From Owenia fusiformis (Eukaryota; Annelida; Polychaeta; Sabellida; Oweniidae), in NCBI GenBank assembly GCA_903813345.2, contig CAIIXF020000009.1, positions 5,820,030 to 5,884,029 of the forward strand: a stretch of 64,000 nt of DNA, read 5' to 3'. The notes below the pieces were generated by a model. That model had not been told where the DNA came from. It saw only the letters and a list, made by a program, of their open reading frames with translations, and searched no databases. Positions 1-58,000 of this stretch are shown one piece after another. Each line of letters starts with the position of its first letter. The first letter of the stretch is position 1. A program made the translations under genes and the position numbers.

Positions 1-931
1 AATTTATAGAAAACATTTTATTTGATATAAATTAAATATATTGGGGTTATCAGCTCATAGTCTGTAAAACATACATAAGCTCATCATATGGTGTTGACAT
101 TGCTATATGATGTTAATAACTGTAGCTTGTTACCACCTGGTCTTGTTTTTAACACTTCTACTTTACTTCCTATCGCCCATAGGCCCCAGTTTACCAGGAC
201 AGAGAATCAAAAAGAATGTTCCCCTAAGTATTGTATTATATTATCTAGATGTCCCCCTCTAGGGAGAGTACCTTTCCATAAGTTTACAATTACAACAGGG
301 GGGAGATTTCCCAAAGATGACCTGTAGTATTCGGCACGTTCGATGACCAATTTTATAAACACAATGTTCGTTGTTGTTTTATGATTATTCTCTACAAGTT
401 TGGATCGAGTAACTTCAATAGTATTACCGTAGTTTTGAAATGATGATGTTGAAATGATGTTAATTGAAACAAACGCTATTTCCATGATTTCAAATGTTAC
501 TTTACGCATGCGCACATCCTGCAATTTGATTGGAGATGATGCGGAGATGATGTAATGGGGAATCCCCGAATACGATAGAATATGAAAGAATTGTGGGAGC
601 TACTCACTTCTTCTGCAATTACAAAGTGATAAATAATACAATTACAACATATTTACAGTTACAGATTTAAAGATATGTACAATACTAGTGTGTTGACGCA
701 TGCATTGGATGATGATTAAGGGTTGCATAATACGCTTACAATTTGTGCTATATTCTTGCTTCATTCAGCTCCATTTGCTCAACAATATATCAAACATTAG
801 ATTTTTTGGGGCATTATGGGTAAATTACATGGTGGCCATTTTGATTTTTTGATAAAAATATATAATGTGTAATTACAATAATCACAATAAATTAATTTTA
901 ATGTTTTAGATGATATCAACATTATTTCAAG
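1..931. other. Intron upstream of first visible exon
   Basis: AT-rich sequence with no recognisable motor exon on the plus strand and no RNA gene. The small frames at 88-327 and 207-524 overlap each other on opposite strands and show no family signal. Confidence 0.6.
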
Positions 932-1064
932 AGATGCGAGATAGCGCACTTCAAAAAACGACAAATAAAACAACTGGACGGTATGTCACACTTAAGCCAA
1001 AGACGCCAACTGTGACGGCGAGTTTCCATGACTCTCTGGAGGCACTTATGCAATCAATGTCAAG
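932..1064 (+). CDS. MYO15A: Myosin XV exon 1 of window: motor, lower 50-kDa region
   Basis: Reads from [12 protein letters not shown] to [18 protein letters not shown], the motor segment after loop 2 that leads to the conserved actin-interface motif. It ends with two codon bases before donor GTAGTG; exon 2 completes an Arg codon. The acceptor may be at 931/932 or 933/934 because two AGs are adjacent. No earlier motor exon was found in 1-931. Confidence 0.88.
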
Positions 1065-4000
1065 GTAGTGTTGGGTTTTGTATTCTTTATTTGTTTTTAT
1101 ATATATTATAATATAAATATAACATAAACATACCAGTGATAAAGACACCCAAGGGGTGTATGATTTATCACAAATTACTCCAAAAAATGAAATACAAATC
1201 ATTGAAGAGAATTTTTGAATCCTTAGATTTTTCAACATTTGTAGCCATATTCAAAAAATGGCAGCCATCGCTGTTATCTAGTATTACTTTCTTGTTCTTT
1301 TACTTGATATGTCCAATCTTGAGAGTATTGGCTGTCTAAGTTTGCTGGCTGTGTCCTTTGGATTATGGCACTGAAAGTGTGACCATTTTCGAGCCACAAT
1401 TGACCATCCATGAGTGATAACACCGAGATAAAATCATGTACGTTTTAATCCAATGTGTCGTGAGTTAGATCACTAGTACAGTATTTACAAGAACGCTATC
1501 ACAACTCGTTGGACAGCGCGACCAATGAAATGAAATCTTCCTTGTGTTGGAATCAGACACATCTGGTTGAAGGAATAGACAATTAGTGAGAACAAATCTA
1601 AAATATAAATTCTCACATTTATTCTTTCATTTTGATAAAGGTTATAGTTTACATTGATAGAATTTATTTTTGAAAAACTGATATTGAATAGTTTTTAAGT
1701 GCAACCATTCTTATTATCCCAACGAACGAAGTTCGGTAGGGATATAGTGAAGCCCTCCGTCCGTCCGTCAGTCCGTCAGTCTGTCAGTCAGTCCGTCCGT
1801 CCGTCCAGAAGATAACTCAAATATTAGTTGACGGATTTTTCGCTAATATTTAGATCTTTCTGAAGTATAGCTTTGTTATACTCAAATGAAAGGCAATTAA
1901 GAGTAGATTGCAAATATTGTATCTTTTTTCTGATTCGAGCCTCGTAAAATTCAAAATGGCCGTCTAATGTACGATTTCGCAATAATTTTTCGATCCCTTC
2001 AAAGTATGGCTATATAATACTCAAATTGAAGGAATTTTGGAGTAGATCACAATTATTGTATTATTTATCAGATTTGTACCTCAGAAAATTCAAAATGGAT
2101 TTTTTCAAGATGGCCGCCGCTTTAAAAATGACGGGACTTTTTCGCAAAAATCATAAATTTTTCATTCTAAACCAAAGTAATTAATATTATTGTTTGAAAT
2201 TTTGGTATTGTATTCGCAACATCTATGTATTTCACATATATTCCATGTTTTTCATCCTGACCCCCAGGGGCCCGTGTATGGGGGGTCAGGAAAACAGAAA
2301 TTTTTAGATCTTTCTGAAGTATAGCTTTATTATACTCAAATGAAAGCCAAGTAAGAGTAGATTGCAAATATTGTATCTTTTTTCTGATTCGAGCCTCGTA
2401 AAATTCAAAATGGCCGTCTAATGTACGATTTCGCAATAACTTTTCGATCCCTTCAACGGATGGCTATATATTACTCAAATTGAAGGAATTTTGGAGTAGA
2501 TCACAATACACTGTATTATTTTTCAGATTTGTACCTCAGAAAATTCAAAATGGCTGCTTTGCAGGAATTCGCAATTCTAAAATCTAAATTTTTCAATTTT
2601 AACCAAAGTAATGAGTATAATTGATTGGAATTCGGTAATTGATATTTTGTTCGTTGGGATTTGCTACTCCGCGGAGTTGCCATTATCTAGTTGAATTGTA
2701 TTTAAGATGCACCCCATTCTTATTTAATCATATTTCAGATGCAACCCATTCTTATTTTATCGTATTTCTATTGCAGCCCATTCTCATTGAATTGTCTTTT
2801 AGATGGAATCCATTCCTATTTCAGATGTGACCCATTTTTATTAAGTTGTATTTTAGATGCAACCCATTCTTATTGAATTGTATTTTAGATGCAACTCATT
2901 TATATGGAATTGTATTTTAGATGCAATCCATTCTTACTGAATTTTATTTCAGATCCAACCCATTCTTTTTGAATTGTATTTCAGATGCAACCCATTCTTA
3001 TTGAATTATATTTCAGATGCAACCCATTCCTATTAAATTGTATTTCAGATGCAACCCATTCCTATTGAATTTTATTTTAGATGCAACCCATTCTTATTGA
3101 ATTTTATTTTAGATGCAACTCATTTATATTGAATTGTATTTTAGATGCAACTCATTTATATTGAATTGTATTTCAGATGCAGCCTATTCTTATTGAATTG
3201 TATTTCAGATGCAACCCATTCTTATAGAATTTTATTTTAGATGCAACTCATTTATATTGAATTGTATTTTAGATGCAACCCATTCCTATTAAATTGCATT
3301 TCAGATGCAACCCATTCCTATTGAATTTTATTTTAGATGCAACCCATTCTTATTGAATTGTATTTCAGATGCAACCCATTCTTATTGAATTGTATTTTAG
3401 ATGCAACCCTTTCTTATTGAAGCATATTTTAGATGCAACTCATTTATATTGAATTGTATTTTAGATGCAACCCATTCTTATTGAATTGTATTTCAGATGC
3501 AACCCAATCCTATTGAATTGTATTTCAGATGCAACCAATTCCTATTGAATTGTATTTCAGATGCAGCCCATTCTTATTGAATTATATTTCAGATGCAACC
3601 CATTCCTATTAAATTGTATTCAGATGCAACCCATTCCTATTGAATTTTATTTTAGATGCAACCCATTCCTATTGAATTGTATTTCAGATACAACCCATTC
3701 TTATTGAATTGTCTTTTAGATGCGATCAATTCCCATTGAATTTTATTTCAGATGCAACCCATTCCTATTGAATTGTATTTTAGATGCAACCCATTCCTAT
3801 TGAATTGTATTTCAGATACAACCCATTCTTATTGAATTGTCTTTTAGATGCGATCAATTCCCATTGAATTTTATTTCAGATGCAACCCATTCCTATTGAA
3901 TTGTATTTTAGATACAACCCATTCTTATTGAATTGTATTTCAGATGCAACCCATTCCTATTGAATTGTATTTCAGATGTAACCCATTCCTATTGAATTGT

Positions 4001-7000
4001 ATTTCAGATGCAACCCATTCATATTGAATTGTATTTCAGATGCAACCCATTCCTATTGAATTATATTTCAGATGCAACCCATTCTTTGTGAGATGTATTA
4101 AACCAAACAACACCAAGGCTCCAATGGTATTTGACGACAAAGTGGTAGTTATGCAGCTGCGGTACTTGGGAATGATCGACACAATCAAAATACGACGACT
4201 CGGCTATCCTGTCAGAATGAGATTCCAAGCCTTTATAGATAGGTGAGTAACTATAGCTTAAAAGGGATATTCCTTGTTTATAGCTTAAAGGGATATTCCT
4301 TGTTTATAGCTTAAAGGGATATTCCTTGTTTATAGCTTAAAGGGATATTCCTTGTTTATAGCTTAAAAGGATATTCCTTGTTTATAGCTTAAAGGGATAT
4401 TCCTTGTTTATAGCTTAAAGGGATATTCCTTGTTTATAGCTTAAAGGGATATTCCTTGTTTATAGCCTAAAGGGATGTTCCTTGTTTATAGCTTAAAGGG
4501 ATATTCCTTGTTTATAGCTTAAAGGGATATTCCTTGTTTATAGCTTAAAGGGATGTTCCTTGTTTATAGCTTAAAGGGATATTCCTTGTTTATAGCTTAA
4601 AGGGATATTCCTTGTTTATAGCTTAAAGGGATATTCCTTGTCTATAGCTTAAAGGGATATTCCTTGTTTATAGGTTAAAGGGATATTCCTTGTTTATAGC
4701 TTAAAAGGATATTCCTTGTTTATAGCTTAAAGGGATATTCCTTGCAAGAGAATATCTTTCTTGATATAGTAGCTATAACCATTTTTAAAGTATCAATATT
4801 TAGCAAAACACAATAAAATATTTCGATAGTCTAAAACTTATCATTTAAAAATGAAAAAAAATCTCGTTAAGAAAATTCCTAAATGCAAGAGATGTCAAAA
4901 CTATAATTCAAATTTTTTATGTTCATTTGATATTGACTAAACCTTTCTTGCTCATTAAGTGCCCGTGATATCTAATGACTGAAAATCATCTTCATAAGGC
5001 TAAGACAAACATTATTTATCACCATTTTATTGGACAAAACTAATTAGGCACATAAAAGGAGACTACAGTAAATGGAGTATCAAGTTTTATTATTAACCTT
5101 GTGCTGAAATATGCCTATTGTGTTGAAACCCCTTATTTGCAAAAACAGAAATGTGTGTTATCTAAGAAACTATATGTACAGGGTGGGGCAAAAAACGTTC
5201 TTTTTTTTTATTTCGATATAACTGTTTTGAAAATTCATGGTTTTCAATAAAATTTTCGCAGAGGATGCATGCAGGAATTATTTTTGCAATTGTTCCCGAA
5301 ATGGGATGATTAAATCTTCAAATTTTTTGAATAAGGATGTAAACAGATACAGATGGAATGCCTCTGTCCCAAATGAATTTGTGATTCAATAATTTTTTCT
5401 ATTTTTATCATTTCTAATGCATTGACATAGACTTTAGGGTCTATTTGAAAAGATACGGATTTCAGGATGATATTCAAAGCAACAATTTAACTGATACTAA
5501 CCATGCCTCAAATTATAGAACCAGACTGACATAGCGTTCAGTCTGTCAGAGAAACACATTTTGTAGGGTGTTCAGTATATTCTGAAATAATTTCAGACAA
5601 AAATGAAATTTTAAGTATCAAAACTAAGATGAAGAAAAACTGATTCAACATCAAGAAAAAATGTGAATTCGGCCTCTGAATCAGTTCTTCTTTCTTTCTC
5701 GATGTTGAAGCAGTCCAACTTCTTTATTGGTCTCTGTACACTATCAATGCTTCAATTTTTATCAGAAATATAGATTGCGATAGTCAGAAACCACTGAAGA
5801 TTTATATTTATCGCTGCATTTCAATCAAAAATATTTAAGAAATATATGCATTGTTGAAAAAGTTTTCACCAAATGAAAGATTTGAACATTTTTGGCCCAC
5901 CCTGTAGATATGAGCCATATCCAGAAAAAACATAACATAGTAATCATCACATTGTCATTTTCTCATTTTTGTTAACCTTGGTTGTAGATACCAAGTATTA
6001 CTAAAGGGTAGGCAGTTACCAAAGACTAAGGCCATCCAAGACAAATGTGAGTTCATCCTTCAGACTGCCACTCCTTCAACTCATGCCAACCAGTATCAAA
6101 TAGGAGCAACCAAGGTAAGGATAAAATCAAAATTTCTCTAAATTCTTCTGCCATGGCTGCAGTGTTGAAGTATACCATCTGATCCATTCTGATACTCATA
6201 GCATCTTTTTGTTTCACCTGAAACATCTCAGGGCAGAGAAGAAATGAGATGTCATGGTTAATCATGATGCATCTGATCTACCACAGGTGAAACAGTTTCA
6301 GTTTTTTGGGACGGTTCGGGTTGGGCTGACCTGGCCTTGGCTGGTATTATATATATGTATATGTATATATTATATATATATTTGTAATATCTACCTGGAT
6401 TGCAATTTGCAAATGGGACTTTTTATTGATCAATAATAATCATTGCAGAAGATAAGGGCCAATTTGACCTAGTTCATTCTTTTATATTTAGAGGTTATGT
6501 CACTATGACGTGAAATATGCCTGAGTTCTCCCAATATAGGCCGACCTTGGGAGGCTCTATATTTGGGCAAGAACGAAGGCATATTTCACGTCATAGTGAC
6601 ATAACTGATGTATTACATGCCTTTGTTCCCATGGTTACTTTGTATCAATGACGTGACGTCATGATATTATCATGGTTATTAAAGAAATCTAATATCAAAA
6701 CGAGGTAAGCGGGCTATATCGGGGTAATCGGGCAATATCGGTGGATATAGCTCGCTAACTTTCCCATTGACTTCCATACAAATGCTTCGCTAGGTATGTA
6801 ATACATCTTAATATACCATGTTTGATGTTCATTTTAGGTATTATTACTTAACAATGAAAAATACACACATTTGTCAAAGTTAGAGTCATTCCGTCACTTT
6901 TGATATTCAAGGCGTTAATGATACACTAAAAGCTCAACACATTAAGAGAATGATTCTTGTACTTGTTGAAACGCTATAGTCAATCACATTAAAGGACCTG

Positions 7001-10000
7001 GCATTTGCCAAGGATTGCTTTTTGCTGATTAATGTTCCAGGTTAATCTATCACTCTCCAATTTAATTTCCCAAACATTTGTGGATGGTTTAAAGACAAGA
7101 AGGCTGAAGTCAAAAAAGCAAAATGTTAAGCTTAAAGGGGCAATAATTAGAGGTTATGTCACTATCGTGGCATATATGGCCGAGGTGTCAGTGATATATG
7201 GCCCGACCTTGGGAGGGACATTGATCTCTGAGAACCGAGGGCATATGTGCCACGATAGTGACATAAACGATTTATAACATACATATGATGATGTAGACTG
7301 GTCAGAGAGTACCGTTTTCTTATAGAATTGACAAACAAATGGTTTGAAAATGATTGAAATGAGTTTAGAAAAATTGCTCGCGCAGTTTTATCTTTGATTG
7401 ATTGGTTATGACGTCAGCGCCTTGACCAATCAGAAAGTTAGCGGGCGCGGGCTTTTCAAAACTTATATTGGCCCGCTGTCTTGTGTACACTTTGCACTAT
7501 ACATCATCATAGGTATGTTATAAAGACTCTTAAGAGACTATAAATTTTAGGGCAATCTTTTCAAAAACCATGTCAATGTCTCCCTTTCTACCCTTGTTTT
7601 ACCACTTTTAAGAATTGAGATATTTGATCAAATAAAGAAGTTATTGAAGTTAAAATATGCAGAAAAGTCCAAATTCATAAGAATTGATATGGGGAAGGAA
7701 GAACCATTTCATTTTTTATTTAGTAAATAAGCATGACTTGGAATGATGAGAACAAAATATATTGTAAAATTATGAATGTTTTAAAGGTCTCAAGTCATCT
7801 CTGCCCCTACATTTCCTTTAACTTTCAGTATGAGGAATCAGTAAAAGTACAATTTATGGTGTCCACCGTGAACACCTCAAAAGAAAGGATCAGATGTTGA
7901 ATCAAAATTAAAAATTGAATTGTATCCCTTATCGTGAGTTAAATGATTAATTTTTAGTAAAATGGTGATCGAAGATGAACATTATTAAATGTCAACTATG
8001 CAGTGCTTTACATGTAATCCAAATTGTTCATCGAATTTAACATCTGAGTATAGACACACATGCTTTCATCACATTTCCATGAGTTTTTATTACCTATACG
8101 TGCAAATCATGTATGAGAGATCCTGTTGCAATAGCCCTCTTTGATTGAAGTTTGGATTCAAAGAACTACACAAATGTCGCTTCATTTATTGATAAGATAT
8201 ACAATATGTCTTAGTGAATCACCTCTGAGCATTAATACATAGGTGTATACTTATGGCCTCCCAAGCTATTAATATAAAATAATTATTTTTATTATCTGTC
8301 ACAATGTATTTTAAATGCTCTCTTTTCTGTTTTTGTTTTAATTTTATTTTTAACCTTCACCAAACCTTTATTAAAATGTGCTGTGTTTCTTAATATATAG
8401 GTGTTTCTGAAAGTTATCATGTATTGAATATATATAGGTGTTTCTGAAAACTATCATATCTTGAATATATAGGTGTTTCTGAAAGTTATCATATTTTGAA
8501 TATATAAAGGTGTTTCTGAAAACTATCATATCTTGAATATATAGGTGTTTCTGAAAGTTATCATATATTGAATATATAGGTGTTTCTAAAAGTTATCAAA
8601 TATTGTATATATATAATTGTTTATGAAAGATCACATATTAATTACAGGTGTTTCTGAGAGAGGAGCTAGGAAGATACTTTGAGATGCAGCAGAACACATT
8701 GGTGAATGAGGCGATCATTTTGATACAGAAGATGACGCGGGGCTTTATTGTGAGGAAAAGGTACCAGGTCAAGAGGAGGTCAACGAGGGTTATTCAGGCG
8801 CATGTGAGACGTTGGATACACAGGTATGCATGGGGTGTGGAAATATTAGGGTGGTGATGTTTTTGAGGGATACCAGGGTGTAAAGGAGTGGAATTATCAA
8901 GGAATTAAAGAGGTAACAAAGACTAGAGAGACTTGAGGATATAGTTCTGATTAATGTCATAAAAATGGCTTTTTATAAGGTTATTTAATTCTAAGAAATA
9001 AGAGGACAACTGCTTTTTTGATTTTTAAATTTGGTTTTTCTGCATCTTAAGTTTTCATTTACTTTTGTATATAACCTTTGTTGCCACTTTAAGTAAAAAG
9101 TATGTTAGGTCATTTTTTATACAAGTTTGCCTGCAAAAATATAATGAAGGATATGTATGTGATGTCATTCACAACACATAATTGGAATATGAGGTTTTCT
9201 AAATGGTTGAATGGGAATGTGAGGTGTTTCCCTTTGTAGGGAAATGGAATATGAGGTTGAAATGGGGTATAAGGTCTTTTTGTTAAGAAAAGGAATGTGA
9301 GGTTTTCTAAATGGGAATGTGAGGTGTTTCCTTTTGTAAGGAAAGAGAATATGAGGTTGAAATGGGGTATAAGGTCTTTTTTTTAAGAAAAAGAATGTGA
9401 GGTTTTCTAAATGGTTGAATGGGAATGTGAGGTGTTTCTTTTTATAAAGGAAATGAATATGAGGTTGAAATGGGGTATAAGGTCTTTTTGTCAAGAAAAG
9501 GAAGGTTTTCTAAATGGTTGAATGGGAATGTGAGGTTTTTCCTTTTGTAAGGAAAGGGAATATGAGGTGTACTTAAGGTGAAGGAAATGAATTGTGTTCA
9601 CAGTTTGAAGGTGAATGTGTTTTTTGTGAATTTGTTTTGAAATAGTTAATACGATATACAAACTAAATACAACACACATGCCATCTATCCATTAAGACAT
9701 CAACTGCAGTAGTTTACGATATAATTATTTTACTGTAATAATGTTTTGAATAATTGAATATAAAGGGGGCATTGCTGTTCAAAATGAATTCTCATTCGTT
9801 GAAGTATGAGGTAAATCATGCTATCTATTGGGTGTGATGTCATTGCTATAATTTTATGGCAAAATATGATAATTTATGTCAATGATCTCATGTCAGTTGA
9901 TTTATTTTGCTGCAAAAAGAATTACATTTACAGTAAATCCTGTGTATGTTGAACATTTTTTTGTCAAGAAGTAGAACCAGTGTAAGTAGAACGCCTTTGG

Positions 10001-13000
10001 AATCTAAAAGTGTTACACTGCGAGATGTTCCACTTACAAAGGTTCATTAACATGGAGTCAATGGGCTGCAAAACCTGTTCCACTTGTGAGGTGTTCAACT
10101 GATAAAGGGTGTTCCACTCAGCAGTTTCTACTTACTCGAAAATGATGAAGCATAAAAATTAAATTGGCAAATTTTAATTTACTTTGATGAGAATTGTGAA
10201 ATGCCTCCAGTAATGAATTCCACTTTCTATTTCATGCTGTTTGTACAAATAAAATTGATTTGAATAAAGGTCAAAAATTGTTGATATTAGATTTTTGTGG
10301 GATTGTATAAAGTTTTGTCATTCAGCTCAGGGGAAATACTATCTTCCATGCACTTTTTTAAAATACAATTTCTCAAACGTAAACATCTAAATAAGGCAGT
10401 ATTGTTATCAGTATTAACATAATTTACATGATAATTAACTCAACCAGGACCTTATGAATAATTAATTGATTAGCATATGCATCAACCTTTAACAATAGAT
10501 AGGATCATGATCGTGAATTTTTAATAGCAATTTCTATTGCAATATGAGAGCTGTATTGATTATTCATGGATTCTACCTGATGTATCCTCTAGAAGGCAAA
10601 TAATTTATTGCTCTATGTCTGATGAAGAAATAATTTCTATATTTATGTGTTTGTATCTCTATTTCCGTTTTCCATGTGTTTCCTATTTTTATGTCACCAC
10701 CAGAAGTGGATGGCTGTTGGTGTCTGTAACAAATAGCATGTGGTGACATTTTGCATGTTAATGCCTTGTTTCTATTTTTCCTCATGCCATCAGTAGCTTT
10801 ACATCAATACTCATTAATAGAGTTTGTATTGGTTTGTGGTTCTACTTTTCCAATCAATTAATTCTCACGCTGGATAATTAACAAAAATCTCAGATTGCAG
10901 TTGATTGCCAATACTTATCAGAACTATTATAATTAAACATCCCTCAGGGTTTTAACATTTAATTTCTTGAAATCCTTTGCTACACATATATTGATGATTT
11001 TATTGAACAATGGAGCTATACTTTCAAATGATTGAGATACGTTCTGGGTTAGTTTGACATTTCTATTACAATTTCATTAGTTAAGTGCACTATGGAATCC
11101 ATTTTTCTGAATATATTGGTAACAGCTATATAGGCTAGCAGTTGGATGGTTGGTTGGTTGTGGTTGGTGGTTGGTTTTTTGATTGGTTGGTTTTTTGGTC
11201 AGTTGGTTGTTTTGTTGGTTGTTTGGATGTGTTTGGCTGGTTGTTTTGTTGGTTGGATGTGTTTGTTTGTTTGTTTGTTTGTCTCTTGGTTGGTGGTTGG
11301 TTGGTTTAGGTGAGGCAGTGTGAGACCACACTAAAATAGCCACATCAAATATATCCCACTGTCTCCCAAAAAAGCCTCTAAAGCTGGATTCCATCCTAGC
11401 TATTTACCTATTCACACCTTACTAAGGTATGGCCCCACTCACTCCTTCTTAGCTTACTTTCCTCTTTTTCCATCTTGTAGATCTATTGTATTCATACTTT
11501 TTGTTTTGGTAAGGTAATCCTAAAGACATATGCTAACATTTCTGTAACTGTCTCATCACAAAATTAGAATTTGAATGTTATAAAAACCATTCGACCTGTG
11601 ACCTTTAACCTGTGACCTATGGGGTGTCCAGAATTTAGTGGAATTAAAACATGATGATGTTGGTAATGATGTGCACCCGCATACATTCAATTCAAACTTT
11701 AATTAATATCATATTGTCACAGTGACTTTCCAATTGACACAGAATTCATAATTATCCTTTCCTTTGTGCACAATCATATTCTCTTCTGTCCTAACAAAGC
11801 TTCTTCATTCTCAATAAAAAACCTAACACACATCCTCTTAGGTATGGTTCTGCGCCAAGCGCCGAGAGTGGAGCTGCAGTAACCGTTTATTCCAACTGAC
11901 AAATACAAAATCATCATCATCTTTCAACATTAATTAACATGATTACAATGCGATCTTTATCGATTATTATGTATTTAATTAGCGTCTACAAACTATTTTG
12001 CTGATACAAGAGTTGCTATTTTGCACTTTAATAAAATGGTTTGTCTGTGACCAAAGTTGTTAACGATGCAACTGTTGCACCGGCTCCTGATCCGGGAACC
12101 CAACCCTTTATATAAAAACTGCAATACACCAGCGCGTACTTTACAGAAAATTCTATAGGGAGGTCCACCTCTCCATGAAAAGGAGCAGTGTGAGGATTTG
12201 AACTTCTACAAGTATTTACCTAATAACCATGGTAATTATTTTTTCAACATACAATAAACTAAATACATGTTATTCTAAAATAATGTAAAGTTTAGTCCAC
12301 CCGCTTTGGCGTTTAGAACCGAGATGACGCCTACAAAACCTTTCAATACCCAAGAAAACAATCCACTCATACATGACCTCGTTCTATTATTAAATCATTT
12401 CAAAACACCTTGACCGTACAGAAATTATTTATACACTAATTCATACTTCGTGATTCAACCGTGAATAAATACATTTCTGTCCTAACAAAGCTTCTTCATT
12501 CTCAATAAAAAACCTAACACACATCCTCTTAGGTATGGTTCTGCGCCAAGCGCCGAGATAACAAAGTTAGGGCCTTTCGAATCGAAATATCTAAATATGA
12601 ATCTACAATCCAATGTTTTGAGTTACAGAAAGCAAATCTTTGATACTATCTTCGATATAACCATCTTTTGCGGTTTCTGATTTCCACCTTCCATGCCGTT
12701 TAAACAACCTGTCACTCACTCCTTGATTTGCTGCGGCAGTACTGCCTCCAGCTCTCATTGAGTGTAAAGAGTACAATTTTTCATTATAACCCAACTCTTT
12801 GAGACATTCCAAGAGAATTTCACGACACCTTGTATAACTCAACTTCTTGTTATCTGTCCTTAACACGTACTCGTTTTTTGATTTTAAAAAGGTCAGTCCC
12901 CTGAATATGTAATGATCGTGTTGGACAACGTTAGCCTGTCTCAAATATCTACTGAGCAAACTGACTGGACAGAGCTTTGTACCTGTTCTCGCAATAATAC

Positions 13001-16000
13001 AATTTCTACCATCTCTGTACACGTCTGTCTTAGAACGCTCAAGGAAGATGCTCATGTGAGTATCGTAGAACATAATATCTCCTAATTGTATACTAGACAG
13101 CTCATCAAATCTAAAGAAACCTGAATAACCCAGCAAGACAAATGTAGCCAACCTCAAACCTTTCAAACATGTTTTAGTATTAGTTGCGAATCTGTCTACA
13201 ATAAGGGCCAACATTTCTGGCGTAATTGGTAATTTCTTGGTTTTTGGTTTGGCTAAAATTCTCTTTGCCGATTCTAAAGTCATTTTAACAAGGTTACTAT
13301 TACATGGATTGCTCTGATTTGCAAAGTTATGTGCCGCAGCAATGGCGTAAACGGCGTTAACCAAAGGACTAGCCGTGTTGCTTTGTTGTATCATGCTCAC
13401 CAAATATAATGCTAAGTAAACTGGATTTGCTGGCAAGCAGGTCACTTCTTCAAATTGTTGTGCCCAGTTCTCCCACTTTTTGTAAGCGTAATTATAAGCC
13501 TCAATTGTTTTGGGCTCTTTGGATTTCAATAAAACTGTTGGTAGTTTTTGTTTTAGTTCCTTAAGTTTTTCACTTTTAACCAATGTATCGCTCATCAGTC
13601 TTTTAAACGGACCTGGAAAAAAGTAATGAACGCAAAACGATTAGACCGTGTCTAAGAATACGCCTAAAATGTACAAAATTATAATAACCTGTAATGTTCA
13701 GGTCAACGCTGCCTTTCATTATGCTAAAACAAAATATATATCCATATCATTTGCCACAATGTATCATCGTCACCACGTTTCTGTTTGATGTTGCCCTCAT
13801 CAACATCTGCAATAACATTGCCATATTGGTATCATCGTCACCATAGAGGTATCATCGTCACCAGGATTCTGTTTGATTTCCTTACAATAAAATCATGCAA
13901 ATAACATATGCTCTAGTGGTATCGTCGTCACCACGGCTCCGTTTGATATCATCGTCATCAAACTAGTGGTATCATCGTCACCACGGCCTTACTTGATATC
14001 GTCATTATCAAGCTAATTTTCATACTAAACCATCATCGTCACTTCGACGTCTCGTTACTTGAGATCATGTTAATCAAGCTAGATTGCCACTTGCCAGAGC
14101 CCTGACATGCATTTAGACCTAACGATAAAATAAAAGATTTTATGTTTATGATGCCCTTCATTACTTCGTATATGATACCACACCTTTCTGTGTCTAAAAA
14201 CATGAACAAAGTATATACAGATCACATGGAAAAATATTAATCAAGTTACACTGAAGCTATACGTATAGACTGTAATTCATGATATGAACATCGTATTTGC
14301 TCTTGATTGAAATAACTGAATGTAATGTTTCATTGGTTTGATCAACTTGATTGATTTTTTATACATTTTTATTCAAAATCTAATTTTTAATGCCAACATT
14401 GTGCCATTGAAATTGTCTTTTGTGAAAACACTGTTGCTCTGTGAGCACTTGTTTAAGACGTATTTTGCATTTGTGTATTCTACAATATCTTTCACAAAGT
14501 ATTTGAACACATTGCCGTTATGTATCAATGGCCAAAATGACGCCGATTGCCACCTAGGTACAATTAAAGTTCCTTCAGCACCCTGCTGTTTCATGTACGC
14601 TATGACGTTTGGCACTAAATACAAAGGTGGCACACACCAGTTATTTTCACAAGACCAAATTTGTGTAAAGGCGTCCACGGCCTCTGTACCTGGGTTCCAG
14701 AACTTTGAATTGAACCTTGTCACTTGCTTGTTATCACATGATGCGAATCTATCTATCGAATGAGGCCCCCATGCCTGATCGAGATCTCTAAAAGTGCTTT
14801 TTGAAATACTCCAATCGTCAAAATCTACTATTTTGCTGTAATAATCTGCCTTCTCATTTAAAGACCTTGGAATCCACTGAATGTTTAAATCCACATGGAA
14901 CCTTGCACACAAAGTGAAAATATCTATCGCCAAAGCCTGCAAATGCTCTTTCATGCTTCCATTTGAGACTATACTGACAATGTTTTTGTTATCTGTGAAC
15001 CACTTGATAGCTTGACCCTCAAGTTTGTTCATTAAAGACTGAAGTACCACATGTACACCTTTTAATTCTCTCCAAGTGGAACTCTGAACAACCTCTGAAC
15101 TTGTCCATGTTTTATAACATATTTCCTGATCCGCTTCGACTACGTAGCCTGCACAACCATTATCACTTGCGTCTGAAAACACAACCTTCCTTAGCTTGGG
15201 AGTATCTACTATCGCCTTACCGTTCAAGTTTTTTAAATTGTTCACCCAGTAAGTTAGCTCTGAAATGCTATTCCCATTAAGAACCACTACCTGATCCCAA
15301 GCGTAACTCTGATTTATTTGTGCGTGTGAATATTTTGTCATGAGTTTTGTGACATTACCCAAGGCTGGACCTGCAGAATTTATCTTGCCTACAACCGAAG
15401 CCAACCGTCTAGCAGTAACTATCACTTTACTTTGCAGAATATTTTCTAAGCATTGAATATAATTGTCGACTTTCGTTTCTGGTATGCGAATTTCAAATTT
15501 TGCGAGGTCTATTACAAAGCCTAACCATTCTACTTTTTGAGCTGGTTCCCACTGAGACTTTTGCACATTTTCTATGAAACCTGCCCTTTTTAGCGTTAAC
15601 CTTACGAACATTGCCTGTAACTCTGTTTCTTGCCTATTGTTGCCAACAATAATCCCATCATCTAAATACGTAACAATTCTCACATTGTTTGACCTCCAAT
15701 ACTTTACTATAGCCCGTACGACCTTTGAAAAAACCAAACCTCCCGTTTTTATTCCAAACGGTAAAACCTTGAAGCAGAAATACTTGATTTGCCCGTTTTC
15801 AAATTGCCACTTGAAACCTAAATATTGCCACTGATTTTGCCTGATGTCCAAGTGATGATAGCCACTTTTAATATCAAATGTGCTCATGTGACCTCCTTTT
15901 CTAAAATAAGGCATAGCTGTGTTAATGTCTTCATATTTCATTTTTTCGATCCACACATGTGGATTAACGTGTCTAAGATCTAAAACTAAACGTTTTTTGC

Positions 16001-19000
16001 CCTTTGCATTTATTGCTACAGTGAGCGGATTAATCACCCTTGGCTTTTGTTCTACTTCGCAAATAAAACCACCTTCTATTAAATTTTGAATTTCTTTTGT
16101 CACGAAATCACCATTTTCTATAGCAGATTTGTTATTCTTAAGATCTACGACACCTGGTTCTGATTTTAATGGTATAACATAGCCATTTTCTACAATATCT
16201 ATTATGGTGCTATTTGCACCTATTTCTGTCCAAAATTTTACATGCCTTCTGAGATTACCTTTCACCTTTTGAGACACATTATCAATATCACATGAAGTTA
16301 CAATTTTACTTATCTTTTCTGTGTTACTGCCCTCCTGCATTTCCCCCTGTTGCCGCCGTGCACTCTCGACTCCAGTGCCCCCTGCCGCCGCAGGCAAAAC
16401 ATGAGTCGGTCGGCCTTGGTCCTCGCGCGATATTCGACTTAAGCTGCTGTTGTTTCTGGGCCCATCCGGTGTTGCCGTTACCGCCGTTACCGCCGCTGTT
16501 ACCGCACCCTGCGTTGCTGTTGTTGCCTTGGAACCGGTTTTGCTGACCACTGAAACTATTGTTTTTTCTTAAATTTTGTGCTCTTTTTTGAACACGTTTT
16601 CTGTTAACAGTACGAATAGCAAAAGATTGAGCCCTTTTTAATTTTTTGTCATCGTCACTATCGCTAGCTATTGAATATTTACGGTACTCGTCTACAGCAC
16701 CCCAACCAGCTTCACTGCTGTCTGCCAAAATGATAAGCTTATTTCTATTATTCAAAATTGACATACCTTTGGCGACCTTTTCGGTCGCCAATTCTGCATT
16801 TCCAGACTTCAGAGCTTCGTTAGCCACGTGTAATTGTTCTAGAATCTCTTTGTTGACCTTGAACTGCTCTTTGTGTCCCGTTCTCTTGAAATCATATTCT
16901 GGTTCTTTATGCTGTCTTTTTGCTGCTGCTAATATGCTTTCTTCTTCGTCTGGTAACTTTCTCTTCATATTCTCCATCTTCTCATTTAGGTCAGAGAATT
17001 TTTGATCAAAATAATTCATGAGTTCCATGTTCTGTTCCATGATGGAAGTTTAGTCCACCCGCTTTGGCGTTTAGAACCGAGATGACGCCTACAAAACCTT
17101 TCAATACCCAAGAAAACAATCCACTCATACATGACCTCGTTCTATTATTAAATCATTTCAAAACACCTTGACCGTACAGAAATTATTTATACACTAATTC
17201 ATACTTCGTGATTCAACCGTGAATAAATACATTTATTAACAGGGTACACAATATTTAATGGTAAACCATCAGCCTTTGGTGAAATAAAACAAGGGACAGA
17301 TATGAAGTTTACATAATATGCAAACCGTGATAATTAATTGCATCAAAACTCATTAAGTATTTACAGCATATAGCTCCATACCAGCCTAGACTCATAGGTT
17401 ATTAGACTTATTTAATCAAAGGTAGATATTGGAAAATGCAGCGGTTAATGTTAATCGCTGGCAATTTCATTTTGTTAGTACAACAGAGTTATCCAGTTAG
17501 CCGATCAGTAGCTTCATATGGAGTTTGTCATGACGATTAAGAATATGAAACAAAGGCACTATTAATCTCTTAAGTACTCGCTGGAATGTTGCACGATGGA
17601 TTGAGATCGTTCTCTCTCATTGTGAACCCAATATATGGATTAACTTGACCTCGAAGAATAAGCAACGAACCTGACACCTTGAAACGTTCAATCCATAATT
17701 GGACGTGAGGCTGAATTACACATTGTACTATTGGATACACCTGTATTGTATTGGATATAAACATGTGCGTATAACTCATTGGATTGGATATATTTAATAC
17801 ATACTTCTATGTATGATGGAGAATATAAAAGGATATACCCATGTAGCATAGATTCAACAATCATAAAAGTGCTTATGACAAGACAAAAGTGATTAAAATC
17901 AACTTGATTTCAATTTTTGGAGCAACACCTATAACGGTGTAATATTCATCTCCTACAGATCTGGTCTTAGATTTATAATATTTCCTCGTGTGTAGTCTAC
18001 GAGCAAATATGGGAACAACTTAAAAGGTGAGATAAATGTATATCATAGGCCCACGTGTATAAAACCTGAGTACCTAGAAGTACAGTATATATCATGGGTC
18101 TATATGCCCAAAGCCATCAAGGTTGCCCCCCCCCCTCCCATCTTCCGATTTTAATCTGTTACTCCAAACAATAGTTTTCTACTCAACCAACTTTTGTCAT
18201 AGCCATTTGACGCACAGTTGTTATTGTAAACAATTGATTGGCACAGTAACAACTCTGTGAATCAGCAAGATTTTTCACTCGATCAAATGGTGGTACTGTA
18301 TTAATTGCCATGTTTCTAACACATCAGACTTGTTCTGTTCTGGATTGAACATGGCATAATATCACCTATGTACAACCAGAGCTTTCTGTAGTTTGCTTTT
18401 GTGATTTTATCTATCCATCTACTTGTAGCTCATCTTTATATCTAAAGCTTGTGAGAGATGTAGTCTAGCTTTCTCTCACAGATAGGAGAGGATTTAGACT
18501 CCACAATTCTCAGACCTTTCTTCTTTTAATTTGAAAAAATGGCATCATACACTATGATGCATTCAAAGTGATTACAGCCAGTTATGTTTTCCCATTTTCA
18601 AACATACATTAATAACACTGCCCGATTCAGGCTCCTTCTAAGTCATCATACTATTCATATAAAGTGATAATAGTTACAGCTTTTCCTTTCCCAGTTACAG
18701 CTTTTCCTTTCTCAGTTACAGCTTTTCCTTTATCAGTTACAGCTTTTCCTTTCTCAGTTACAGCTTTTTCTTTCTCAGTTACAGCTTTTCCTTTCTCAGT
18801 TACAGCTTTAATTCCTTTCTCAGTTACAGCTTTTCCTTTCTCAGTTAAAGCTTTTTCTTTTTCAGTTACAGCTTTTCCTTTCTCAGTTACAGGTTTTTCT
18901 TTCTCAGTTACAGCTTTTCCTTTCTCAGTTACAGCTTTTCCTTTCTCAGTTACAGCTTTTTCTTTCTCAGTTACAGCTTTTCATTTCTCAGTTACAGCTT

Positions 19001-40000: not shown

Positions 40001-43000
40001 CCAATCAGATTGCAGCTTTACAATTATCTTATTCTCGATGCTTGCATCGTGATTCACAAGTTTTCAGTTGTTTCTACCTCTAGACCCAGTCAAAGGGATG
40101 ATGGATAGCAAGAATGGGAAGGCATACCTCTCTAAAAGCAAATGATCCAGATACTCAGAAATGTGTCCTCTTTGAACTTCTCCAGGGTATTTTCACAAGT
40201 AGAATGCTCAGTTTTTACACGTTTAATATTTTGAATCTATTTCAGATCCTGCGATTCATGAATGATGCTAACCTCAGTGGCAAGAGAGAGCTTGCCCTGG
40301 CTGCTTACATTGTACATATGGTAAGTGGATATACTCATTTTGTGAGTTTTTTAAAACATGATTAATTTATGTACAGTGACAGCTGTCTAATCAGAATGCC
40401 ATTGGGACTGGCCAAAAGTGTTCAGATTGGCAGGTGTTCACATTTCAAGGATTTTAACATGGTGACCTACAGACCTATGGGAGATTAAAAATAGGATCAC
40501 AAAAGTGTTCACAACAAAGGTTTTCAGATTAGAGTGGTATAGATATTCAGGTTTTACTCCATACAACTTGGATATTTTGCTCCAAGACGTGTCCACAATT
40601 CGAGAATGTTGCCCTTTGATATTACGATGTGTCAAAAGATATTTAGACATCCTGGTAAAAACAGAATGAACCAGTTTTCATGGTGTTTTTCTCTATAAAG
40701 ACTTTAATGTTATCTAGCCCAGTTCAAAACTATCTGGTTTTAGCTGGCACTTATATCACACATTGATTGCGTGATATGAATGGAACAATGTGACATGAAT
40801 ATAACAACATGAACAATTCATTATGTATTTTACATGTTCAGCTTAAGATTATGTTACATAAATAGATAAACTACATTTTATTACATTATGTATTGTAGGG
40901 TATATCTAGTGAGGGGCTTAGAGATGAAATCTATGTACAGCTATGCAATCAGACCTGGGGCAATGATAACCCTGCTAACTGTGAGAGAGGATGGTGGCTC
41001 ATGGCTAATTGCCTCAGTTGTTTCCCACCCTCATCCACCAGCAGCAAGTATCTCCTCAAGTAAGTCATGTATTCATACTCATTATAAAGTAAGTCATGTA
41101 TTCATACTCATTATAAAGTTAGTCATGCATTCATACTCAGTATAAAGTTAGTCATGCATTCATACTCATTATAAAGTTAGTCATGTATTCATACTCATTT
41201 TAAAGTTAGTCATGTATTCATACTCATTATAAAGTTAGTCATGGCTTCATACTCATCATGAAGTTAGTCATGTATTCATACTCGTCATAAAGTTAGTCAT
41301 GTATTCATACTCATTATAAAGTAAGTCATGCATTCATACTCATCATAAATGCAAAGAGCTCAGGCTCATAAATGAATAAATGCAAGGAGGTCAGACTTGT
41401 AAATGAATAAATGCAAGGAGCTCAGGCTCATAAATGAATAAATGCAAGGAAGACTGACTCATAAATGAATAAATGCAAGGAGGTCAGACTCATAAATGAA
41501 TAAATGCAAGGAGGTCAGACTCATAAATGAATAAATGCAAGGAGCTCAGGCTCATAAATGAATAAGTGAAAGGAAGTCAGACTCATAAATGAATAAATGC
41601 AAAGAGCTCAGGCTCATAAATGAATAAATGCAAGGAGGTCAGACTCATAAATGAATAAATGCAAGGAGCTCAGGCTCATAAATGAATAAATGCAAGGAGG
41701 TCAGACTCATAAATGAATAAATGCAAGGTCAGACTCATAAATGAATAAATGCAAGGAGGTCAGACTCATTAATGAATAAATGCAAGGAGCTCAGGCTCAT
41801 AAATGAATAAGTGAAATGAGGTCAGACTCATAAATGAATAAATGCAAAGAGCTCAGGCTCATAAATGAATAAATGCAAGGAGGTCAGACTCATAAATGAA
41901 TAAATGCAAGGAGCTCAGGCTCATAAATGAATAAATGCAAGGAGGTCAGACTCATAAATGAATAAATGCAAGGAGGTCAGACTCATAAATGAATAAATGC
42001 AAGGAGGTCAGACTCATAAATGAATAAATGCAAGGAGGTCAGACTCATAAATGAATAAATGCAAGGAGGTCAGACTCATAAATGAATAAATGCAAGGAGG
42101 TCAGACTCATAAATGAATAAATACAAGGAGCTCAGGCTCATAAATGAATAAATGCAAGGAGGTCAGGCTCATAAATGAATAAATGCAAGGAGGTCAGACT
42201 CATAAATGAATAAATGCATGGAGCTCAGACTCATAAATGAATAAATGCAAGGAGCTCAGACTCATAGAAGAATAAATGCAAGGAGCTCAGACTCATAAAT
42301 GAATAAATGCAAGGAGGTCAGACTCATAAATGAATAAATACAAGAAGGTCAGACTCATAAATGAATAAATGCAATGAGGTCAGACTCATAAATGAATAAA
42401 TGCAAGGAGCTCAGGCTCATAAATGAATAAATGCAAGGAGCTCAGGCTCATAAATGAATAAATGCAAGGAGGTCAGACTCATAAATGAATAAATGCATGG
42501 AGCTCAGACTCATAAATGAATAAATGCAAGGAGGTCAGACTCATAAATGAATAAATGCAAGGAGCTCAGGCTCATAAATGAATAAATGCAAGGAGTTCAG
42601 GCTTCTCAAACTAACTACCTCATTTTTACAGTGATAGAGCCTAGCTTACCTTGTTCAGCACTCTAGCCCGCTCAGCCAACCATGAAAAAGGTTGTTTCAT
42701 CAGTCAATCTGACTAAACCGAACAGGTGTTAACGCTAAAACACACTAGAGGCAACACACTAACACTCTCAATTAGCTCGATTGTCATGTAAATACATATT
42801 ATTAACGGAACAACTAATCCCCAAAGAACCATAGTCTTTCACATTCTCGTATAAGTTCATGTGTAGCCAATTATCTACATGTTCAGCTCACGAAATAATG
42901 ACATATACATTGTTCATGTGTTCATCAAGGATTTATTTCACTTAAATTTTGAGACTATTCTCATCATACAAAATTAGATACCACAAAATTTCAAGATATC

Positions 43001-52000: not shown

Positions 52001-55000
52001 TCCGAAAAATGATTTCAAGAAATTGTCAATTCCGAATCTTGTCAGACAGAAATTGTCCCTTCCTAGGATTGATCTCCCAAAGAAAAGTATCAACAAAAAA
52101 CTTTCACTTCCACGAACAGATTTTACCACCACTCTGTCACTTCCTGATATAGATTTTAAAACCTTGCCTCCCTTCACAAGGAAACTCAAGAAGAAATCAT
52201 TACCTAGGACCAATTTTGAAAGTGTAGAACATATTGATGATGTCTCTTTGAATCACTCCAAGCATATCAAGACCAAAATACCACCTGTACTCGTTGAACC
52301 TGATGACTCAAAATCTGACAAAGAAACCAAACATGATGGTGATGACATTCTGTTAACTGATACTGTGCCGCAAAAACCTGATTTTTATCTAGATACTGAT
52401 ACGAATGTAGACTCACCTGTCATTGATAAAAATGGTGCAGGAACAGAGGTCAATGATGACTCAACTCATATATATGAAAATATTGAGAAAAAGTTTGACA
52501 GAATTGAAACTTTACATGACGAAGACCATGAAATAGAAATGTGCTCTTCGGAAAGAGGATTTACATTCTCAAATGATGGAGAGTCCATACACTCTGATAG
52601 TACACTTGTACCTGATGAAAATATAATTGCACCTGATGAAAGCATAGTTGTACCAGATGAAAGTACACTTGCACCAGATGGGAGTGCTAGTGCAAAAGGT
52701 GGTGGTGCACATGTACTCGATACAAACCTTACTGACCAAGATGACCAAGTCAGCAATGTAGCATTCTTAGAATCTGAACAAAAACTTGAAATTGAGAATC
52801 CAAACAATTCAAACATAGACATTGATTTGGCACATGGTGATTTTGATGAGTCTAATCTGAGCCCAAGTCAGGGTCTGAGCTCAGACTTGCAAGTCCATTC
52901 CAATAAGCATGAACCTTTAAATTCTGACCCTGCATCCCTTCACACTTCCTCCCTGATGCAAACAGCAGGTATATCGTCCTCAAACTTTCTCTCATCTAGG
53001 GGTAAAATAACCATACTAATTCAATTACTAATATTCTTAGACCTTTATTTAAGGACTACTCTTGGTTGATTAAACTTTTTAACTTATACTAATCAAATCA
53101 GATTCCTTGAAGACTAAACATTAGGTAAAGCCCGATTTTTGGTACATTTGTGGATTTTTTGTCAAATTGGCAATATAAATTAAACCCTTCCATTAAGTCC
53201 TGGCAGCTTTTGATTAAGAAATTAGATAATGTTGGCTAAACTTCGTGATGTCAGACTAAAAAGGAAACAGAATTTGTAATGGAGCAGTCATACCTAAGCC
53301 ATGTGGGCTCACTGTTCTTCACCGTGTGAATACTTTTGGCGGTGCACGGTATGGATATATATGGTGGGCAAAACGAGTAGTTTTATGGCAAGATAACTAT
53401 ACCTCATCATACCAAATACAAGATTTAATTAATTAATTGAAAAAGAATTAGCCACACAGTGGTGAACAGTTATTCCACACAGCTATGTGACCGTTAGCAA
53501 GTAATATGTTGGAGGATTAACAATAAGTTAATTTTGTTTCTGTCCTGAAATTGGAAAAATGGCATCATTATTAAAAGCTGGCACGATTTACTGGATTTGT
53601 CTACTAGTGTATTTCTCAAGGCATGTAATGGTACACTGTATTATATTTCAAATTATTTGGTGTGGATTTTCGATTTCATAGGAGTAAATATGCATGAGCC
53701 CATGGTCTATGTCCACATATAACACCCAGGTATATTGAGCTTACTACCTCCTTTTTATGGGCCAATATGTATGACACCTTCATTATTACCCATTGCTTTT
53801 GCAGCTATCATTGTACAAGCTGGTGGTAGTTTATTTTCAATATTGTTTTCTTAAAAATTGTTTCAATTTTTGGAATCAATTAATTTTTTTTAATGAAACA
53901 TTTGTTTTAAACAACAATTAATAGAAGTAATATTTTATTTCATACCACAGTGATATTTCTATTTTGATAAATCTTTTTTTAGATAAATCAATGTGAAACT
54001 ATGAACCTGTGTTACAGACTATCTAGTTGTAAATTTAGTCATAACCATGGACATGATATCATTTCAGCATTTTCAACAGCACCTGTTGTTGATCCAATGG
54101 CAGTTGCACAACAAGTGGCTATTCAACAGGCAGCTGCACAACAGGCAGCTGTACAACAGGCAGCAGCTCAGCAGGCAGCTGTACAACAAGCAGCTGCTCA
54201 ACAGTTAGCTGCACAACAAGCTGCCCAGCAGTTAGCTGCACAACAGGCTGCACAGCAACAAGCTGCACAACAACTAGCTGCCCAACAAGCTGCCCAGCAG
54301 TTCACACAGCAGCAAACTTTGACACAAATTGTAAGTGATAAACTGACTCAAAACTTTTATGAAATATCTAATTCATAGTTAGTCTAGGTTCATTCAGTGT
54401 TTATGATTAGTTGAAATGCATTGATTAATTGTTTGTTTGTATGAATTGCATTGTGTTGATTTATTGTTTGTATGGATTTCATTGTGTTCATTCATTGTTT
54501 GTTTGTATGAATTTCATTGTGTTCATTCATTGTTTGTATGGATTTCATAGTGTTGATTCATTGTTTGTTTGTATGAATATCATTGTGTTGATTCATTGTT
54601 TGTTTGTATGAATTTCATTGTGTTGATTCATTATTTGTTTGTATGAATTTCATTGTGTTGATTCATTGTTTGTATGAATTTCATTATGTTGATTCATTGC
54701 TTGTTTGTATGAATTTCATTGTGTTGATTTATTGTTTGTTTGTATGACTTTCATTGTGTTGATTAATTGTTTGTTTGTATAGATTTCATTGTGTTGATTC
54801 ATTGTTTGTTTGTATGAATTTCATTTTGTTAATTCATTGTTTGTTTGTATGAATTTCATTGTGTTGATTCATTGTTTGTTTGTATGAATTCCAGTGTGTT
54901 GATTCATTCATTATTTGTTTATTACAGAATGCCCAGCAACAGCAGACAGCACAGCTGCAATCACAGCTGCAGAACCAGACATTGCAGAATCAGATCCTAC

Positions 55001-58000
55001 AGCAGACCATACAAACAGAGACTTTGAAGCAACAGCTGACAAGTATGCAGTCCCCACCACCAACAAAGGCCCCTGCCCCTGTGGTGTCCCCACAGGCATC
55101 CTATGCTCCCCAGTTTAATGGCCTAGAAGAGCCCCCTAAGTTTTCATACAAGAAACAGGTTGATAGGACCAAAGCCCCTGCCAAGGGGGAGGTGGATGCA
55201 GGTTCTCAAGGTGGATTTGGAACTCTGAAAGGGCAGTTTGAGAAACGACAGGTTGATCATCCAAGGCAATATGTACCTCCTCCACCACCCCCTATTGTCA
55301 CCAATGGGGATGTCCCTGAAAAAGGAGTTAAATTTTCCGAAAGTGTTCAGACAATATCGCCTGTGTCTCCAGATCCCCCTAAAGAGACAAAGGAAATTGG
55401 GACTGTAGCTCCTAAATCTTTACCTCCTTCACCGCCATCAACTCCTGCGCCACCCCCTCCCCCAGTTCCTACAATGTCATCTTCCAAGACATCATCAGAA
55501 AACAATGACACGCACCACCTAGATGCTGAAGAAAGAGCAAGGACTATCAAAATCGGTAAATTTGCCTGGCCTCCGAAGCAAGAAGTTGTCGAGAAAGAGG
55601 CAGTAAAAGTGAACAAGCTTCTGATAGATGAAGCCAAGGTGGACACCGAGATTCAGAAACCTGCAACAAACCAGGAGCGCCATGATCGCACCATGGAGTT
55701 GATTAGGTCTCGTAGTATGGATGCTAAAACGGCCGCAACAGCCCTCAAAGAACTGGTACGTTTCTCTTAAATATCTCAAATCAAAATGTTTTCACATTAT
55801 TATCCCAACGAACGAAGTTCGGTAGGGATATAGTGAAGCCCTCCGTCCGTCTGTCAGTCCGTCAGTCCGTCAGTCCGTCAGTCCGTCAGTCAGTCAGTCC
55901 GTCCATCCGTCCGGAGAATAACTCAAATACTAGTTGACAGATTTTCTTCATATTTAGTGGAAAGATGTATATTGGTTAATAGTTTTACGCAAAAAAAAAA
56001 TTTTCAAGATGGCCGCCGCTTTAAAAATGACGGGACTTTTTCGCAAAAATCATAAATTTTTCATTCTAAACCAAAGTAATTAATATTATTGTTTGAAATT
56101 CTGGAAGTATATTCGCAACATCTATCTATTTGACATATATTCCGTGTTTTTCATCCTGACCCCCAGGGGCCGTTTATCGGGGGTCAGGAAAACAGAAATT
56201 TTCGCTTATCTTTAGATCTTTCTGAAGTATAGCTTTATTATACTCAAATAAAAGGCAATTAAGAGTAGATTGCAAAAATTGTATCTTTTTTCTGATTCGA
56301 GCCTCGTAAAATTCAAAATGGCCGTCTTATGTACGATTTCGCAATAATTTTTCGATCCCTTTAAAGTATGGCTATATTATACTCAAATTGAAGGAATTTT
56401 GGAGTAGATCACAATTATGGTATATTTTTCAGACTCGTACCTCAGAAAATTCAAAATGGCTGCTTTGCAGGAATTTGCAATTCTAAAATCCAAATTGTTC
56501 AATTTTAACCAAAGTAATGAGTATAATTGATTAGAATTCGGTAATTGATATATTGTTCGTTGGGATTTGCTACTCCGCGGAGTTGCCCTTATCTAGTTTA
56601 CTAGATATGGATGGCAGGAGCAGACATTATGTTTTAATTCTCTCTTATTGATAGCATGAGATTTATTATTGGAATACATCATATCAGGACTGATTATCAG
56701 AAGTATTATATACTTTAATTATAGATGGCACTAGTAGTAGACTTCATTCATCTCGTGAATTTGTTTTGTTGATTATGAATATCAAAGTAATTTGATAATG
56801 AATAGACACATTTTAGTAAATAAATCTGTGACTGAATGTAGGATTAATGGCTCATTGATTACAGAAAATGCATAATAATAAAAAATGATTAGTGGAGTGG
56901 ATCCCAGTCTGTTCAATTGATGAACCACACAGTGTACCTACGTTTAAAAAATTGCTAAAATCAATATTGACATTTTAGAAAAAGGAAAATAAGACGCCTG
57001 AAATTCAGCACATCGACATGAAGGACCGTGCAAACAAACTGGAGAAATTAATGGCGAACAAGACCCCCACTGGTAGCGTTAAAGCCCTCCCTCCACCACC
57101 CCCTCCCCCTCAACCAGAGCCAGTAGTTCAGGCCACGAAAGCAACCGAGGAGGAACAGATATATGATACCATATTGCCAGTTACCAATATTGATGGTGAG
57201 CCATGAAAAATAGAATAAGTTGCATGAGATCACAATTGATAAAACAGAAACACATTTTTTAAAGATTTACATTGGAATCAATGACTAATGGACTTCATTT
57301 AGATTCACTATGCGCAAAATTAAAATAAAACTTGGATATGTTGATGAACACATGAACACAAAATGATTTACAGATTTAATTCACAATAAATTAACCTTTA
57401 TCCGCATTATATATAACTATAAATTATGAATTTAACCTATTCCATTCAGATGTAGCAGTTACTCAAGTTGATCCGTCAATGCTGGAGAATATTCAGACAG
57501 AGCTGTATGGCCCAAACACCGCCCCATACTACATGTACAATAAAACCCCTTGGGAGCTTCTTGTTAGGAAGGAGGTAGGTACCCATACTTATGTTTTATA
57601 ACTCATGCTAGAGAATTTTCAGACAGAGCTATATGGCCCAAACACTGACCCATACTACGTGTACAATAAGACCCCTATGGAGCACAGTGCCTACACACTC
57701 AAATGTTTTGTGACTAATGCTTAGGTATATGCAACCTCATCTTCCTAAGCAGGTGTCCAGAATCCGTACCTCCTTCTTTCCCCCTGCTATAACCAATTTG
57801 GAAGCACCTGATAAAACAGAATCACGTGATCTAATTATGCGCCAATGACATATATGATTGCTGTCGCAATGTTGTGACAGTGTATCAAATTGCGAGTTCT
57901 AAATTGGGGAAATGCTAACTGCTTATCGCAGGGGGGTAAAAAGAAAGAAGTATTTTGAAGCCCTGTGATCGGAGGATGATGTAACCTCACTTATCAATTT

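Follow-up and report, generated by a model that had tools for sequence, protein, structure and literature searches.

How can an intron that ends in dozens of copies of its own acceptor splice site be joined to the correct exon, and how would such an intron come about? The question is raised by a minisatellite at positions 2691-4086, on the plus strand, of a 64,000-nucleotide window (the whole stretch analysed; contig C9, CAIIXF020000009.1, positions 5,820,030 to 5,884,029), which lies in an intron of a predicted myosin gene and repeats the junction at which the next coding exon begins. We read this array as a splice-junction minisatellite of the 'mirage' type, in which an intronic tandem duplication took in the junction, the coding copy was pinned and the exon-proximal site is the one used, and we give this reading a probability of roughly 0.78.

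Tandem Repeats Finder described the array with a period of 32, 44.0 copies, 85% matches and a score of 1896, and a separate unit-by-unit parse likewise counted 44. In the unit, TTGAATTGTATTTCAG|ATGCAACCCATTCTTA, the last 16-17 intron bases are followed by the first 15-16 of the exon. The exon itself, which starts at 4072 and opens with ATGCAACCCATTCTT, agrees with the unit consensus at 15 of 15 exon bases, bearing out the view of an earlier, sequence-only reading of this DNA that this junction gave rise to the units. The final unit (4056..4086, plus strand) holds the real acceptor at 4071|4072 and is preceded by 43 decoy units (2691..4055, plus strand), 42 of which retain AG at the junction position, close to the figure of about 42 sense copies given in that reading. 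As in the mirages, short units stand in tandem, the unit crosses the boundary of the adjacent exon and most units retain the AG. Across the 498-Mb genome the core pattern TTTYAGATGCAACCCATTC had 21 exact matches, all in the sense orientation and 21/21 inside the array, with 0 matches for a reversed-pattern control over the whole genome, and a 96-base query from the array gave 20 similarity matches, 20/20 of them at the same locus. The 32-bp unit was thus not found elsewhere, either as a dispersed satellite or as a transposon-borne repeat, an absence that is strong rather than absolute since part of the sequence is masked and frequent words are passed over in the similarity search. Dispersal independent of the exon was one of two findings that the sequence-only reading had named as fatal to its idea; its expectation of an array present only here holds for the 32-bp unit, but not for junction-spanning arrays as such, which recur in this and other genes.

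The exon after the array (4072..4242, plus strand) comes from our own gene prediction and carries a Myosin_head match (C9:5824099-5824293, E-value 7.2e-16). All exons of the window were predicted by our own script, which gave 30, of which 4 were discarded as spurious. When this exon was joined to the upstream coding exon at 910..1064 (plus strand; MISTLFQEM... plus AG), to the predicted coding exon at 5988..6114 and to the exon at 8648..8823 (plus strand), which by prediction and profile matches encodes the end of the motor and the IQ region, the product matched Myosin_head positions 524-679 with an E-value of 6.6e-37, and also an IQ motif. Compared with the solved structures of myosins X and VIIa, the predicted protein shows no gap at the 4071|4072 junction. 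Because the part shared with the unit encodes a motif of these myosins and runs through the junction without a gap, the exon is the source of the unit and not its product, which agrees with the earlier proposal that the final copy is under coding constraint and could have served as the sequence source; the gapless product of the last copy also fits its suggestion that the array is tolerated through last-site choice. Three further Myosin_head matches lie upstream on C9 (5785387, 5787280 and 5804275), on the same strand and in profile order, so exons 910-1064 and 4072-4242 are not the first two of the gene, and the earlier placement at the junction of exons 1 and 2 was right about an intron end joined to an exon start and wrong about their rank. 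The three best solved relatives of the predicted protein are myosins X, VIIa and XV, and MyTH4 and SH3 domains follow farther downstream in the predicted gene, a domain order that suggests a myosin XV-like gene.

In a rough acceptor model, built from 203 sites of this genome picked by our generic score, the true site scores 10.45, at the 66th percentile, and 16 of the 43 decoys score at least as high. Splicing into any of the 43, including those at distances divisible by 3, would bring a premature stop (49 nt past the junction for 36/43), so that a working gene needs the last site; the earlier claim, that most decoys would shift the frame, was if anything too mild. The 40 full-length decoys match the consensus about equally well on the two sides of the junction, with a mean identity of 0.92 for intron bases and 0.91 for exon bases, as would be the case if selection neither kept nor purged decoys, and the acceptor A and G are each conserved at 0.975, similar to many other columns. 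Selection to disable the decoys was not seen, 42 of the AGs being intact and conservation even, nor do the decoys show visible conservation as splice sites.

We infer that the array was born by duplication. A tandem duplication would have included the junction by chance, copying a 32-bp segment of intron end and exon start, after which ordinary exchange between tandem repeats would have lengthened and renewed the array on the intron side. Coding constraint would fix the 3'-most copy, which encodes the CNPFF of the myosin motor, and the copies upstream of it would have become intron, free to multiply and removed with the intron. The array is harmless only if splicing takes the exon-proximal site, and the acceptor chosen would be this one, adjoining the full exon and its donor. 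Motif strength cannot discriminate between the copies, so that what singles out the true site would have to be exon sequence past base 15, a partnership with the downstream donor (exon definition) or the order of the sites along the RNA, which are the options that established knowledge of splicing offers. Exon definition, or another exon-proximal rule, would then be the reason for the silence of the decoys.

The array also carries traces of its history. An orphan degenerate unit at 1684..1715 (plus strand), which aligns locally with a score of 44 where 60 shuffles reached at most 28, lies to the left of a mobile element that occupies about 1711..2690, between this unit and the array. The element was recognised from its sequence, with an inverted pair TCCCAACGAAC ... 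GTTCGTTGGGA near its ends and related pieces at 55797-56598 by self-BLAST. Since a unit survives beyond it, the array was once longer and is older than the insertion. Units 32-34 are identical, in order, to units 36-38, an apparent sign of recent block duplication.

Within the window, 3 of the 52 junctions of the 26 predicted exons have an intron-side copy with a likeness of at least 0.70 over 27 bases, namely the acceptor at 4072 (best copy 1.0), the acceptor at 8648 (0.70) and the donor after 41059 (0.70). The second acceptor-spanning array (8388..8657, plus strand) has a unit of about 35 bp, and six decoys reading AG|GTGTTTCTGA, or nearly so (the last with CTAA), lie at 8401-8580, upstream of the real site at 8648 that opens the VFLRE exon. 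The donor-side array (41058..41349, plus strand, unit 29 bp) follows the MyTH4 exon (40899..41059, plus strand, own prediction with a profile match), and in it the real donor at 41060 is followed by nine AAGTWAGTC copies, of which two have GTAAGT and seven GTTAGT; it is a weak case, its unit containing only 2 exon bases. Directly after it stands a different 31-bp array of 40.6 copies (41345-42600). At the acceptor of the exon at 54928, a 35-bp array (54421-54908) stops 20 bases short of the site, and the last intron bases resemble, by eye, a worn 35-bp unit; this junction is not copied in that array (best likeness 0.52). The exon at 4072-4242 has minisatellites on both sides, as a 26-bp array (4252-4744; 18.9 copies, 96% matches) begins 10 bases into the following intron, and the donor of the exon is not copied in it (best likeness 0.52).

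For the frequency of such arrays elsewhere in the genome, exons were chosen by profile match with repeats disregarded, from myosin heads (79 of 92 matches, without the 12 of a repeated exon cluster and the 1 match lying in the window), kinesins (119 of 144 matches, dropping 18 in a 159-bp block that is itself positive and 7 others) and ion channels (42 of 138 matches, the first 42 of 52 chosen by match length). Junctions above the splice-score cut numbered 116 of 158, 174 of 238 and 53 of 84, respectively, which with the 52 of the window makes 395. Intron-side copies of at least 0.8 identity were present at 1/52 junctions in the window, 2/116 in myosins, 11/174 in kinesins and 0/53 in ion channels, in total 14/395, with exon-side copies at 0/395 and shuffled introns at 0/395. 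At 0.74 identity the corresponding numbers were 14 intron-side, 1 exon-side and 0 shuffled, and at 0.70 they were 22, 1 and 1; shuffling the myosin set on a larger scale yielded 0/1160 at 0.74. Because the rate varies strongly between families, it stands for the genome only as a rough few percent.

The arrays found in this way copy both kinds of junction. Acceptors are copied at L021 (61-bp unit) and L111 (42 bp), and donors at L042 (34 bp, 4.0 copies, 100% matches), L113 (57 bp, 9.4 copies) and L109 (91 bp). Two further acceptor arrays recognised by eye, L133 (84 bp, four copies) and L044 (259 bp, three copies), fall below the acceptor cut and are outside the 14/395. The 159-bp block (L140, G000:C2:23265900-23270100), outside the kinesin sample, holds 17.9 copies of a unit that includes the acceptor and much of a kinesin exon; its length is divisible by 3, and the open frame is only 52 residues in most copies. 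Decoys that are in frame and open were present at three kinesin exons, making up 3/3 of the decoys found at L111, 5/8 at L113 and 4/8 at L078, and splicing into them would give a protein with extra repeats. Set aside were L024, L040, L041 and L056 (one copy at 0.70 each), L086 and a second L111 exon (0.67), L171 (0.67) and L112 (0.70), where the array begins 11 bases into the intron. L159, a donor with two 21-bp copies at 0.70, is weak, and L107 and L023 are doubtful, their arrays being probably unrelated to the junction. In the repeated part of the myosin data, twelve consecutive matches to one myosin head stretch (profile about 18-84) at G000:C9:37986009-37994334 look like a large alternative-exon set of a muscle myosin gene. 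As a tentative extension, to which we give somewhat less than even odds, a few percent of the junctions of this animal may carry such arrays, the largest with dozens of almost identical acceptors or donors, and the arrays would pile up through strict exon-proximal choice (last acceptor, first donor), and occasional decoy use could lengthen proteins unit by unit.

Other explanations of the array were weighed against this evidence. An unrelated satellite with a chance likeness to the exon, or an exon start made from such a satellite, has nothing in its favour and is extremely improbable given that 15/15 exon bases equal the consensus and encode a conserved motor motif, and with no exact match to the core elsewhere it is refuted, barring dispersed copies in masked stretches. 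That long-read or haplotype errors in assembly made the repeats is very improbable too: copies are indeed identical over the compared stretch at L042, L105 and L114, but the 43 decoys carry many differences, the array is broken by a mobile element, and arrays of this sort, diverged to varying degrees, stand at many loci. A third alternative is a poison switch, in which regulated use of decoys leads to a premature stop and message decay and so tunes the amount of myosin, and which would be served by intact AGs in 42/43 units, by 16 decoys that equal or exceed the true site and by a stop after every decoy. Against it stand the even conservation of intron and exon parts and an A and G no better kept than many other columns. 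Selection for frame-preserving unit lengths was likewise not seen elsewhere, as unit length is divisible by 3 in 7/20 loci (6 if L061 is 86 rather than 87), the chance share that is expected if decoys are seldom used. Lancelet mirages are moreover described as normally spliced (PMC3087553, PMC3902484), and we consider the switch improbable.

The sequence-only reading had pictured an expansion anchored at the junction, and a related proposal is that junctions promote tandem duplication, for instance through co-transcriptional structures. The birth test covered 117 arrays, 98 of them intronic, with five arrays within exons excluded; in the four samples 19 arrays cross a junction against 7.94 expected under random birth, L023 and L107 being doubtful and L159 a weak two-copy case among the 19. 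The excess lies mainly in kinesins, with 12 crossing arrays against 4.18 expected (P 0.0006), and was not replicated in ion channels, with 1 against 0.96 (P 0.63); the window gave 2 against 0.85 (P 0.21) and the myosins 4 against 1.95 (P 0.12). Within the window, a nearby copy (0.8 identity, within 600 bases) was present at 13.3% of 3000 random intronic positions but at only 1/52 junctions, random positions being copied more often since arrays fill much of the introns there. The exon share of the unit spans 0.29 to 0.90 in 15 loci, from which it follows that the junction does not set where the breakpoints fall. Junction-targeted birth of arrays, and with it the special mechanism pictured earlier, is therefore not established, and junction promotion appears unlikely. 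In our reading of the counts the breakpoints are random and selection at least does not remove the crossing arrays, with a modest excess possible.

Several observations weigh against the origin by chance duplication and the exon-proximal choice that we favour. The kinesin excess may reflect some bias toward junctions, and in the four samples crossing arrays are not rarer than random birth predicts. Distance from the consensus falls a little toward the exon (rho -0.34, P 0.03), a weak trend that is gone when the last unit is taken as the reference (P 0.33). The silence of the decoys is itself something we infer. Finally, the choice of an exon-proximal acceptor is predicted neither by a scan for the first AG after the branch point nor by a rule that favours the first site transcribed.

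The predicted myosin gene also harbours a retroelement at 12603-16568 on the minus strand, between the exons at 8823 and 32151. One of its frames matches RVT_1, RVT_3 and, weakly and below the cut-off, a Dam methylase, and another frame gives a weak tyrosine recombinase match (Phage_integrase, below the cut-off); we take the element to be DIRS-like.

Arrays of this kind have been described in lancelets, where mirages are reported in Adh3, troponin C and the globins BflGb6 and BflGb9 and imperfect repeats in PGBD5, with splicing reportedly not disturbed (PMC3087553, PMC3902484). The likeness is close, with minisatellite-like units across exon-intron boundaries, at acceptors and donors, many units retaining AG or GT, and unit lengths of 10-72 bp (Adh3) and 150-160 bp (globins), of the same order as here. 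The differences lie in the 44 units of the present array, compared with the 6 and 3 given there for two BflGb6 haplotypes, in the lophotrochozoan host, and in the several genes whose junctions are hit in samples not chosen for arrays. A potato RdRp gene (PMC4974935) resembles our case in a tandem duplication that runs from an intron into the exon after it and copies the acceptor, and departs from it in that the upstream and downstream copies made a new intron; in our exon prediction there was no sign of a new intron inside a duplicated segment, and a long array stands there instead. The human TERT intron 6 variable number tandem repeat, with a 38-bp unit (PMC11830802), is similarly an intronic minisatellite of comparable unit length with splicing at issue, and the partial text of that report does not present it as built from a splice junction. 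Among the papers that searches of an open-licence library brought up, we recognised only the lancelet arrays and the potato case, and no junction-spanning arrays in lophotrochozoans.

The host group was taken from the Hox cluster on C1, which contains, besides two genes with UbdA-type tails, a Lox5 whose tail reads EKLTGP. We take the KLTGP tail of Lox5 and the UbdA-type tails to be lophotrochozoan marks, and these genes thus place the host in Lophotrochozoa and rule out a lancelet, which the mirage literature would have led one to expect. Searches of the assembly for the COX1 and GFP families gave no match, both weak negatives, as a mitochondrial contig may be missing for the former and the control also gave none for the latter.

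The array is of a known kind, new in this animal group and recurrent there, and its occurrence in several lophotrochozoan genes suggests that the mirages of lancelets are not a lancelet oddity. For gene predictors it is a caution, as any of the copies could be picked. The rule by which cells choose between near-identical splice sites close together is unsettled, and most work on it uses constructed minigenes; this locus provides a natural 44-way contest that motif strength cannot decide. Together with the arrays at other junctions, it offers material for testing exon definition, the tolerance of decoys, and the idea that tandem duplication can supply new exon sequence or introns.

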